Of a DNA stretch of 34,614 bases, positions 10,321-26,040 are shown one piece after another; position 1 is the stretch's first letter, and each line of letters begins with the position of its first letter. The position numbers and the translations under genes were made by a program. The notes beneath the pieces are model-generated. The model ran no database searches. It was not told the origin of the DNA and saw nothing but the letters and a program-made list of their open reading frames with translations. The stretch comes from Bacteroidota bacterium (GTDB lineage Bacteria > Bacteroidota > Ignavibacteria > UBA10030 > BY39): positions 1-34,614 of the forward strand of contig JASEGV010000031.1 in the NCBI GenBank assembly GCA_030017895.1. Direction: 5' to 3'.

Positions 10321-10406
10321 GCCGAAGTGGTGAAATTGGTAGACGCGCTGGACTCAAAATCCAGTAGGGCTTACACCCTGTGCCGGTTCGAGTCCGGCCT
10401 TCGGCA
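10321..10406 (+). tRNA. tRNA-Leu (anticodon CAA)
   Basis: 86 nt. The acceptor stem GCCGAAG/CTTCGGC is perfect. The D arm is GTGGTGAAATTGGTAGAC, the anticodon stem CTGGA/TCCAG encloses loop CTCAAAA with anticodon CAA, a long variable arm (AGGGCTTACACCCT) marks a class II tRNA, and the T arm has GTTCGAGTC. The discriminator is A; CCA is not encoded (ACA follows). It reads UUG leucine codons. It is the only plus-strand gene in a long minus-strand stretch. Confidence 0.96.
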
Positions 10407-10410
10407 CAAA

Positions 10411-10529: not shown

Positions 10530-10603
10530 ATATATCAAACACTCCAATATTCTATCAAATCCAACACTCCATTAATCCATCACTCCATTTATCCAATATT
10601 CCA
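10530..10603. repeat. Degenerate short tandem repeat rich in TCCA words
   Basis: The tract repeats variants of ATCCAACACTCCATTA and ends ATCCAATATTCCA (10591-10603) just beyond the stop of the PhoU-like gene. The same 13-mer recurs at 12440-12452 beyond the amidase stop. On the minus strand it would be 3' untranslated sequence. Function unknown. Confidence 0.45.
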
Positions 10604-23693: not shown

Positions 23694-23847
23694 ATGCTGG
23701 AATATTTAAAATTAAATTTTTATAAGCATAAGTTATCAATTGAAAAAAATATACAAAGAATTTTTGATTTATAACAGAAACGTGAAGGTCTTATAATTAA
23801 AGGATTTGTTATGCAGAAAGTCTCACCCAAAATAATTTTAATTAGGA

Positions 23848-24609
23848 TTAGATTAGATGGATGTCGTTGAGGAATGGGAATTTAGCTCGCGTATCTAAAA
23901 CTTGTTTAATCGAAATTTCAGCTTCGATTATCGATTCTAAGTGTGGATTCAACAATATTTCGTTTCCCAGTGGGTCGTATAAACTGCTATAGCCATTATA
24001 CTTAGCAAGTGGATCGGTGCCAACCCGGTTTACACCCGCTACAAAACATTGATTCTCGATAGCCCTCGCTTTCAACAATGTATTCCAATGTTCGATCCTT
24101 GTAACGGGCCAGTTAGCAATCACTATAATTAAATGTACTCTTTCCTTTGCATAGAACCGGAACAATTCAGGAAATCTAAGGTCGTAGCAAATCGAAAGTC
24201 CGATTTTAAAATCTTTTACAGTAGTGATTTTGTGTGCTACCCCCCTTTGATAAAATTTGTCCTCGCCCGCGAATGAAAACGGATGAATTTTTCGGTACGA
24301 TGTAACCAAGCCGCCAGATTCATCGATGTGAACAAGTGTGTTGTAAAAATGCTCGACATCTTTTTCGATTAAACCAGCTAAGACTTGGGTTTGAAAATTC
24401 TGGGCAATTCTCGAAAAGAAACGAAAGCTATCGCCGGATAAACTCTCGGCTAATTCTTTCGTGCGCATTGAAAACCCGGTAAGACTCATTTCCGGGAAAA
24501 TTATTAAATCCGATTTGGAGAACTTACATCTTAGTAATTCATCGATTCTTTTCTTGTTCAGCTCTTTATTTTCCCAGACAGGATTATATTGAAATAGAGA
24601 TATTTTCAT
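23848..24609 (-). CDS. Nitrilase-superfamily amidase (omega-amidase-like)
   Basis: 254 residues from ATG at 24609. The triad is Glu40 (IIFPEMSLTGFSM), Lys107 (YRKIHPFSFAGEDKFY) and Cys141 (SICYDLRFPELFR). CYDLRFPELFR and the PFSFAGE region resemble Nit2/YafV omega-amidases, which hydrolyse alpha-ketoglutaramate or similar amides. The open frame extends 60 codons further upstream, but that part is the tRNA-Ser gene read as protein (EWLNWHAWKACVP), so I reject the longer start. It lies 49 bp downstream of tRNA-Ser. Confidence 0.88.
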   Translation of the reverse strand: MKISLFQYNPVWENKELNKKRIDELLRCKFSKSDLIIFPEMSLTGFSMRTKELAESLSGDSFRFFSRIAQNFQTQVLAGLIEKDVEHFYNTLVHIDESGGLVTSYRKIHPFSFAGEDKFYQRGVAHKITTVKDFKIGLSICYDLRFPELFRFYAKERVHLIIVIANWPVTRIEHWNTLLKARAIENQCFVAGVNRVGTDPLAKYNGYSSLYDPLGNEILLNPHLESIIEAEISIKQVLDTRAKFPFLNDIHLI

Positions 24610-24657
24610 TAAAGTCTTTGCGTATAAATTAAGGTGAGCATCTGAGTAATAGTTTAG

Positions 24658-24744
24658 CGGAAAGGGAGAGATTCGAACTCTCGGTACCCTTTCAGGTACA
24701 CACGCTTTCCAGGCGTGCCAATTAAGCCACTCTTGCACCTTTCC
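24658..24744 (-). tRNA. tRNA-Ser (anticodon GGA)
   Basis: 87 nt on the minus strand. Acceptor GGAAAGG/CCTTTCC, D arm with GGCTTAATTGGCAC, anticodon stem CACGC/GCGTG enclosing CTGGAAA (anticodon GGA), a long variable arm (GTACCTGAAAGGGTAC) and T arm GAGAGTTCGAATCTCTC. The discriminator is G and no CCA is encoded. It reads UCC/UCU serine codons. The 5' 31 nt are also present, with an inserted palindrome, at 25022-25083 and 25360-25421. The reading frame of the upstream GIY-YIG gene ends at a TAA inside the D arm. Confidence 0.96.
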
Positions 24745-24988
24745 GTAAATCTGGTAGATGACGGTCAAGCCAAGTACGACCGACACCACTTTTTAAAAAT
24801 CTTTCTCTTCTATATGCTTCGCTTCTGGTTGAATACTGTTCTGTGTAAACCAGAATCCAAGGCATACCACCTTTTGTAAATCTGTTCCTACCTGCGTTGT
24901 GTTCGTTTAATCTTTGCTCAACATTATCAGTAGAACCAATATATCTTTTTTTTATCTTACTACTCCAAAGCACATAGATGGAAAACAT
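24722..24988 (-). CDS. GIY-YIG nuclease, copy A, ending inside tRNA-Ser
   Basis: 88 residues. GIY-YIG core: FSIYVL (the GIY element as SIY, 3-5), KRYIGST (YIG 16-18), Arg26 in QRLNEHN, and RRERFLKSG with the metal-binding Glu62. It resembles the short UPF0213/YhbQ-like GIY-YIG proteins. AGGTGA lies 4-5 nt before the ATG. The last six residues (KGARVA) and the stop are encoded by the first bases of tRNA-Ser. It differs from copy B by E24V and N28S. Likely role: a site-specific endonuclease acting near this tRNA locus, inferred from the repeat structure. Confidence 0.85.
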   Translation of the reverse strand: MFSIYVLWSSKIKKRYIGSTDNVEQRLNEHNAGRNRFTKGGMPWILVYTEQYSTRSEAYRRERFLKSGVGRTWLDRHLPDLRKGARVA

Positions 24989-25063
24989 AAATCACCTATA
25001 TCTAAGTTTTTTACTTTGGAACGTGCCAATTTGCGCCAAAGGCGCATCAGCCTTTGGCTGAAA
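24726..25063 (-). repeat. Tandem 338-bp unit A (GIY-YIG + tRNA fragment)
   Basis: Direct copy of 25064-25401 with about four mismatches (two in the coding region, two in the leader), ~99% identity. It begins in the intact tRNA-Ser at GCCACTCTTGCACCTTTCCG and holds GIY-YIG copy A, the leader, 10 bp of tRNA sequence and the 30-bp palindrome. Confidence 0.95.
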
Positions 25064-25326
25064 GCCACTCTTGCACCTTTCCGTAAATCTGGTAGATGAC
25101 GGTCAAGCCAAGTACGACCGACACCACTTTTTAAAAATCTTTCTCTTCTATATGCTTCGCTTCTGGTTGAATACTGTTCTGTGTAAACCAGAATCCAAGG
25201 CATACCACCTTTTGTAAATCTGTTCCTACCTGCGTTGTGTTCGCTTAATCTTTGCACAACATTATCAGTAGAACCAATATATCTTTTTTTTATCTTACTA
25301 CTCCAAAGCACATAGATGGAAAACAT
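24952..25326 (-). CDS. GIY-YIG nuclease, copy B, with read-through tail
   Basis: 124 residues. Residues 1-88 equal copy A except V24 and S28. Where copy A stops in the tRNA D arm, this copy meets a tRNA fragment interrupted by a 30-bp palindrome; the insertion is a multiple of three and removes the stop, so the frame runs on for ~36 residues (FSQRLMRLWRKLARSK onward) and ends within the start region of copy A, overlapping it by 37 bp. The tail is an accident of the repeat and probably not functional. Same AGGTGA ribosome-binding site. Confidence 0.8.
   Translation of the reverse strand: MFSIYVLWSSKIKKRYIGSTDNVVQRLSEHNAGRNRFTKGGMPWILVYTEQYSTRSEAYRRERFLKSGVGRTWLDRHLPDLRKGARVAFSQRLMRLWRKLARSKVKNLDIGDLCFPSMCFGVVR
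25032..25061. repeat. 30-bp double palindrome inside tRNA fragment (unit A)
   Basis: TGCGCCAAAGGCGCA followed directly by TCAGCCTTTGGCTGA. Each half is a 6-bp stem with a 3-nt loop, and GCCAAAGGC can also pair with GCCTTTGGC. It splits an otherwise exact 32-bp copy of the tRNA-Ser 5' end (25022-25031 and 25062-25083). Confidence 0.9.
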
Positions 25327-25401
25327 AAATCACCTATATCTAAATTTTTTACTTTGAAACGTGCCAATTTGCGCCAAAGGCGCATCAGCCTTTGGCTGAA
25401 A
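25064..25401 (-). repeat. Tandem 338-bp unit B (GIY-YIG + tRNA fragment)
   Basis: Second unit, head-to-tail with unit A. It starts with the same 20 bp of tRNA-Ser 5' sequence (25064-25083) and carries GIY-YIG copy B. A third copy of those 20 bp follows at 25402-25421, after which similarity ends. Confidence 0.95.
25370..25399. repeat. 30-bp double palindrome inside tRNA fragment (unit B)
   Basis: Identical to the palindrome at 25032-25061, in the same position inside the second tRNA 5' fragment (25360-25369 and 25400-25421). Confidence 0.9.
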
Positions 25402-25436
25402 GCCACTCTTGCACCTTTCCGAATTTTATACTTTTG

Positions 25437-25465
25437 AATATATCTCGATAATACATCATATCCAA
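25437..25465 (-). promoter_or_regulatory. Probable displaced promoter of tRNA-Ser
   Basis: On the minus strand, TTGGAT (25465-25460), a 17-bp spacer and TATATT (25442-25437) lie 16 bp before an orphan tRNA-Ser 5' end (first base at 25420). The geometry matches the tRNA-Leu promoter (TTGAAG-N16-TATATT, 13 bp). If real, transcription must cross both GIY-YIG units to reach the intact tRNA. Confidence 0.5.
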
Positions 25466-25497
25466 AACCATATAATTGTGATTTAAATACTACACAT

Positions 25498-26040
25498 TTA
25501 TCTTGTGCTATCTAATCCGTATTCGTAACCTTTATCAAATGCTTTCAAGTTTAATTCTTCAGTTCCTTTGGGGACTGAAGCAATAACTGCTTTACGCATT
25601 GCTTCGGGATCAATCAATTTTGTAACTGCTGTCATGAATCCCATCATTACAATATTAATTACTATTTTTTTCCCAAGGTCTTCAGCAAACCGCATAGCAG
25701 GAATCGAATAATGGACTACATCTTTCCTTAAATTATGTGGTACTACTAATTCTTCTTCAGTAATCAAAATACCACCCGTTACTAATTCAGGAGAAAATTT
25801 TGTGTATGCTTCCTGCGACATAACAATCAGGATTTGAGGTGTTGTAATGTAGGGGTAAGCGATAACTTCAATATCAACTATTACTTGAGCACTGCAAGCG
25901 CTTCCGCGAGCTTCAGGTCCGAATGCCTGAATCATAGTAGAATATTTATTGTCGTAAATAGCAGCAGCCCTTCCAATAATATAACCGCTAAGAATTACAC
26001 CCTGTCCACCAAAGCCGCCAATTTTTATTTCTGTTCTCAT
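25498..26040 (-). CDS. korC: 2-oxoacid:ferredoxin oxidoreductase, gamma subunit
   Basis: About 180 residues. MRTEIKIGGFGGQGV at the start and AFGPEARGSACSAQVIV near residue 40 are hallmarks of the gamma subunit/domain of pyruvate and 2-oxoglutarate ferredoxin oxidoreductases. ATG at 26040 with a GAGAG ribosome-binding site is preferred over a TTG at 26055 that would overlap the beta-subunit stop. It closes the four-gene kor operon. Confidence 0.88.
   Translation of the reverse strand: MRTEIKIGGFGGQGVILSGYIIGRAAAIYDNKYSTMIQAFGPEARGSACSAQVIVDIEVIAYPYITTPQILIVMSQEAYTKFSPELVTGGILITEEELVVPHNLRKDVVHYSIPAMRFAEDLGKKIVINIVMMGFMTAVTKLIDPEAMRKAVIASVPKGTEELNLKAFDKGYEYGLDSTR

Follow-up and report, generated by a model that had tools for sequence, protein, structure and literature searches.

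Tandem GIY-YIG units beside tRNA-Ser(GGA) look like an undescribed minimal mobile element homing into tRNA genes

Why two nearly identical copies of a very small GIY-YIG nuclease gene should lie hard against a tRNA gene is the question raised by the window, by which is meant the whole stretch of 34,614 nucleotides analysed, one contig of a 176-contig draft genome of 3.2 Mb. The initial annotation had read the pair as a mobile element targeted to the tRNA. Comparison with relatives supported that reading and widened it to a family, in which the nuclease would itself cut the tRNA gene and drive the movement.

The two units at tRNA-Ser(GGA)

The intact tRNA-Ser(GGA) (24657..24744, on the minus strand like all the features of the array) was called by ARAGORN, matched RF00005 and has stayed whole beside the units. 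The proximal unit (24724..25061) and the distal unit (25062..25399) lie immediately on its 5' side and form a direct repeat family (D1/D2) with a spacing of 338. The two 338-bp units differ by four mismatches (98.8% identity), so the initial description of a tandem pair about 99% identical is confirmed and the two-unit structure is real. The first 22 nt of the tRNA occur in a third copy at 25400-25421. A search of the genome with the tRNA gave a single full-length match, and the intact gene is therefore probably the sole copy.

Both units carry a gene with a PF01541 domain, but the length of about 88 residues first given for each holds for the proximal gene (24722..24988, 88 aa, E 2.3e-16) and not for the distal one (24952..25326, E 4.5e-15), which has a read-through C-terminus and encodes 124 aa. 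In the same way, the nuclease stop codon was rightly placed inside the tRNA for the 88-aa ORF, which ends at nt 23 of the intact gene (stop in nt 21-23), but the upstream tRNA copy has no such stop, because a palindrome intervenes, and the distal ORF consequently reads on. Nucleotides 1-31 of the tRNA are present in each unit as described, though in the partial copies they are split between nt 21 and nt 22 by this 30-bp double palindrome. In the proximal unit the partial copy, detected as a chained tRNA match (nt 1-21 and 22-31, 25022..25082), has the palindrome TCAGCCAAAGGCTGATGCGCCTTTGGCGCA in its D-loop (25032..25061), and the partial copy of the distal unit (25360..25420) is split by the same palindrome (25370..25399). 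This palindrome (TCAGCC..GGCTGATGCGCC..GGCGCA) is also a repeat of the genome that is found away from tRNAs (L016, L018; contigs C6 and C65 of G000), on one occasion as a tandem pair, and in other genera variants of it were seen within partial copies of tRNA-Ser (L061, L104).

The window protein scored 60.3 bits against PF01541, for which the curated cut-off is 22.6, and is a member of the superfamily; in 41 relatives the catalytic columns Y5, Y16, G18, R26, H30 and E62 (protein numbering) are invariant. Pfam matches in the units were confined to GIY-YIG and an overlapping T5orf172 match, and no integrase or recombinase gene was found in them, the GIY-YIG gene being the sole ORF. No Rfam intron family was detected in the window and the tRNA is uninterrupted, so the units are not mobile group I introns. 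The protein (P0001) had no PHROGs match, no match in phage records, which would have been expected of a member of the phage SegB family, and no close relatives in phage and plasmid collections. Upstream of the array, matches to consensus promoters were no more frequent than in shuffled sequence.

The window's genome contains 13 GIY-YIG matches, several of them beside other tRNAs where a scar of the same kind is present. At tRNA-Val(TAC), read by eye, the gene begins at the 3' end of the tRNA, and beyond it comes a partial copy of the tRNA 3' part in which a palindrome takes the place of the anticodon arm; the tRNA itself contains a masked or unresolved run of N. Two degenerate 275-bp units are found at tRNA-Asp and a truncated gene at tRNA-Ala. 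Dozens of genomes show the same anatomy, at about 20 tRNA species in all, and that at tRNA-Ser(GGA) is therefore not a matter of chance.

Association with tRNA genes in the order and the phylum

Attempts to establish how far the nuclease is tied to tRNA genes were based on 61 genomes of the order to which the window belongs, from which GIY-YIG matches were chosen by E-value rank and not by context, with tRNAs called by ARAGORN. A tree of 116 GIY-YIG domains from this sample divided into two clades, one with a tRNA within 300 bp of 50 of its 66 members and the other with none in 50 (Fisher p 4e-19), while a random gene would be expected to lie this close to a tRNA with a chance of about 1%, as estimated from some 44 tRNAs in 3.2 Mb. 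The association of homologues with tRNA genes that the initial annotation had suggested checking is thus strong. Across the phylum, a profile of 41 clade members (E 1e-12) found relatives in 117 of 198 genomes, and 57 of 97 matches were 300 bp or less from a tRNA. When the order and phylum samples were merged and duplicates removed there were 106 tRNA-adjacent genes, every one of them co-oriented with its tRNA, 69 downstream and 37 upstream of it. Use of the 5' end of a tRNA, to which attention had been drawn at first, is real at tRNA-Ser(GGA), but the family is not limited to it and the 5' position is that of the minority (37/106).

Seven of the 66 members of the tRNA clade had no tRNA neighbour, a point against homing into tRNA genes, and six of these form a subclade with different ends. 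The subclade (L006 992-1276, L115, L126, L146, L043, L055) is nested in the tRNA clade and its genes have inverted ends of about 16 bp (TTCACCCCGTGAGATA ... TATCTCACGGGGTGAA) that also encode the last residues of the protein; the nuclease genes of L043 and L146 apparently disrupt tyrosine recombinase genes. When 40 GIY-YIG loci lacking a tRNA neighbour were scanned with Rfam, no other structured RNA emerged as a target. A scan of genome contigs with the single protein gave one distant match, in the phylum of an Alphaproteobacteria MAG, where about 32 GIY-YIG loci include 5 that closely follow a tRNA and are co-oriented with it. These five loci (L241, L245, L246, L251, L252), at tRNA-Ala or tRNA-Ser, have palindromes such as CTTCGCCCTTCGGGC. 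No partial tRNA copies were found at them; the full anatomy is therefore documented only in the window's phylum and the evidence for such elements outside it is thin.

Partial tRNA copies, nuclease lineages and occupancy

A partial copy of the same tRNA was found on the far side of 47 of the 56 tRNA-adjacent genes of the order sample, as judged from chained exact 7-mers, by which old copies can be missed. Where the gene is upstream the far copy is the 5' part of the tRNA, from nt 1 to about nt 30-50, and where it is downstream the far copy is the 3' part, which usually begins at nt 5-31 and is complete from there on. The rule is consistent and hence the gene sits within what is apparently a tRNA gene, one side of which has been rebuilt. 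Among the 37 upstream ORFs, 20 end within the tRNA, mostly at nt 10 or nt 21-24.

The initial annotation had described the units with the palindrome removed, but hairpin inserts recur in the partial tRNA copies, as a hallmark of them, and are not incidental. The 56 inserts had a median length of 31 nt; their folding z averaged -4.4 and was below -2 in 89% of inserts vs 7% of the control. They split the D-, anticodon or T-loop or replace the whole anticodon arm, and simple inserts favoured unpaired tRNA positions (27/38, expected 52%, p 0.013). Relative to far non-coding DNA the density of palindromes was about threefold beside genes of the tRNA clade and twofold beside those of the other clade. 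The partial copies are split by hairpins, yet an intact tRNA remains beside the gene.

Tandem arrays were seen 29 times, mostly with periods of 320-380 bp; on contigs of more than 3 Mb, one in G185 has three copies and one in G238 has four. At one locus (L066, on contig C44 of G003) tRNA-Leu(CAA) is followed by two genes, the second of them diverged, each with a tRNA copy after it; the first copy has five hairpins and the second nearly the same ones, which suggests copying or conversion between scars. At a remnant beside tRNA-Ser(GCT) (L222, 1540-1760) the duplication also takes in about 27 bp that precede the tRNA (TGAGTTCAGCACTGTTCCCATCC and its neighbours), and some elements therefore seem to carry a tRNA promoter region.

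The history of the nucleases was followed on a tree of 98 tRNA-adjacent proteins, which with 66 columns is poorly resolved at depth. On it the amino-acid label of the tRNA changes 29 times, vs 64.1 when labels are shuffled (0 of 200 shuffles as low), while host family changes 62 times vs 71.7. Nuclease lineages are therefore specific for their target and cross host families, a tracking of target rather than host that would be expected of a free-standing homing element, here read from a weakly resolved tree. The window nuclease, for instance, groups with tRNA-Ser nucleases from three families (f2, f6, f14). The side of the tRNA that is used varies within one tRNA identity (24 changes vs 28.3 when shuffled).

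Presence and absence at cognate sites among relatives, also to be expected of such an element, was found at three tRNAs in G000, G004, G001 and G002, although several of the key contigs end in repeats. The tRNA-Ser(GGA) site is filled in the window and without a unit in the same-genus genome G004, where the tRNA is inverted with respect to its flanks; at the same tRNA an element is present at the 3' end in G001, across a contig gap, and the site is empty in its congener G002. The empty sites for which the initial annotation had proposed to look thus exist, in G004 and in G002. Conversely, tRNA-Leu(CAA) is empty in the window (10321..10407, plus strand; ARAGORN) and occupied by a GIY-YIG element in G004, the alignment of the window to L063 breaking at the 3' end of the tRNA and resuming at 10565. 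The site at tRNA-Ser(GCT) holds a gene in G004; in G000 it holds a decayed remnant, the partial tRNA of which is split, and the same genome has a further decayed remnant at tRNA-Asn. The stretch 23730-25511 of the window is rearranged relative to G004, with the tRNA inverted relative to the flanks, and the corresponding interval of G004 contains nothing to match the part that holds a carbon-nitrogen hydrolase gene (23848-24702).

Homing and its alternatives

The anatomy, the association with tRNAs, the co-orientation, the target-specific lineages, the differences in occupancy, the decay and the tandem arrays are best explained by a family of minimal, intron-less homing elements that restore the tRNA they enter, a reading that can be given a probability of about 0.75, with cleavage and transfer as its conjectural steps. 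Each element would consist of a small GIY-YIG gene and the piece of the target tRNA needed for rebuilding. The nuclease would cut an unoccupied cognate tRNA gene roughly between the D-loop and the anticodon arm, probably at about nt 20-45, since this is the stretch common to both arrangements. Repair, with homology on both sides, would copy in the gene and the tRNA sequence, restoring one complete tRNA and leaving the other half across the gene as a partial copy. Co-orientation would place the gene within the transcription unit of the tRNA, with an upstream ORF often ending inside the tRNA, and suggests that this unit is used for expression. Unequal repair between partial and complete copies could give rise to the tandem arrays. 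The hairpin inserts break the partial copy and plausibly make it both uncuttable and non-functional as a tRNA. A difficulty for homing is that the intact tRNA beside the gene should retain the target, so self-cutting must be limited somehow.

A bolder version is put forward tentatively, at a little short of even odds. These would be phylum-wide autonomous elements of about 0.3-0.45 kb parasitising tRNA transcription units, each lineage keeping to one tRNA species, inserting on either side with the tRNA rebuilt and using the tRNA promoter, while a hairpin-armoured copy shields the site; the hairpins would then be active in the mechanism, and the elements would rank with the smallest autonomous mobile elements of bacteria that encode a protein.

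The nearest precedent is phage SegB, a GIY-YIG nuclease whose cleavage sites are inside tRNA genes and which causes tandem amplification via short homologies (PMC13096335). SegB and its relatives are free-standing homing endonucleases of T-even phages and resemble the units in the GIY-YIG domain, the lack of an intron and a position adjoining tRNA genes, but they are phage-borne and the accessible text describes no partial-tRNA and hairpin anatomy (PMC13096335). The units by contrast are chromosomal, about 340 bp long and leave a rebuilt tRNA. A small nuclease gene tied to a conserved target that still functions is also a feature of mobile group I introns carrying GIY-YIG genes (I-TevI type, including those in tRNAs), but beside the units the tRNA is complete and Rfam finds no intron. 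Integrase-type elements at tRNAs, such as genomic islands and prophages, also bring a piece of tRNA that rebuilds the gene and leave a direct repeat at the far edge; the units differ from them in having no integrase, in their size of about 0.34 kb, in the use of both tRNA ends and in being always co-oriented. UPF0213/YhbQ-like and SLX1 GIY-YIG proteins have the same domain and size class as the nuclease of the units, whose clade differs from its sister, presumably UPF0213-like, in that the latter is without tRNA neighbours (0/50).

The most serious of the rival explanations, although improbable, is that the nuclease acts in the manner of SLX1 on palindromic or cruciform DNA and not on tRNA sequence. 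The palindromes would be the moving part, tRNA genes would be targeted for their short inverted repeats and the tRNA duplications would be by-products. The solved structures nearest to the window protein are indeed UPF0213 proteins and SLX1 structure-specific nucleases (1zg2, 1ywl), and the strong folding of the inserts, their preference for unpaired positions and the density of palindromes near genes of both clades all fit. By itself, however, it leaves the tracking of tRNA identity by nuclease lineage and the constant orientation unexplained, palindromes of the same type occur elsewhere in the genome with neither tRNA nor nuclease, and several occupied sites are without a detectable partial copy.

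It is far less likely that the locus is a host-serving, locus-bound system, a tRNA-linked toxin, defence or RNA-processing nuclease with the hairpin-bearing partial tRNA as decoy or regulator. Co-orientation and frequent overlap, with 20 of the 37 upstream genes stopping inside the tRNA, would suit such a role, hairpin-bearing tRNA copies could serve as RNA decoys and PADLOC gave matches, if only weak ones (PDC-S14, E 7e-5). But the patchy occupancy among congeners, the decayed remnants and the tandem copies look selfish, many different tRNAs are used and within the units no other gene stands alongside the nuclease.

Passive hitch-hiking, with tRNA genes as insertion hot spots to which the units, inactive themselves, were brought by integrase-type elements or recombination, is already disfavoured and marginally less probable still. 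Genes for tRNAs are known integration sites of integrases, and the 5 of about 32 loci near tRNAs in the other sampled phylum might be taken in the same sense. Yet the unit lacks an integrase and is too small to hold one, no member of the sister clade (0/50, from the same genomes) lies near a tRNA, and co-orientation in 106 of 106 genes, target-specific lineages and the use of both tRNA ends would not be expected of passengers. An assembly artefact or a simple local tandem duplication at one locus, conceivable for a single contig of a 176-contig draft, is refuted as an explanation of the family by the same arrays inside contigs of more than 3 Mb (L201, L202, L219, L221) and the same anatomy at many other tRNAs.

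The homing elements proposed here appear to be undescribed. No description of chromosomal tRNA-linked GIY-YIG genes was found in the literature searched, though an unpublished or subscription-only one may exist, and a 2006 survey of the GIY-YIG superfamily holds three mentions of tRNA, one of them on a methyltransferase fusion (PMC1564403). If the homing reading is right, many small bacterial genes at present filed only as GIY-YIG nucleases would belong to one homing family within tRNA transcription units, and elements of this kind may explain the tRNA-fragment repeats and the odd C-termini of annotated GIY-YIG proteins. They would also offer a ready system for the spread of a nuclease gene without intron, intein or integrase, for target switching between tRNA species and for the instability of tRNA neighbourhoods.
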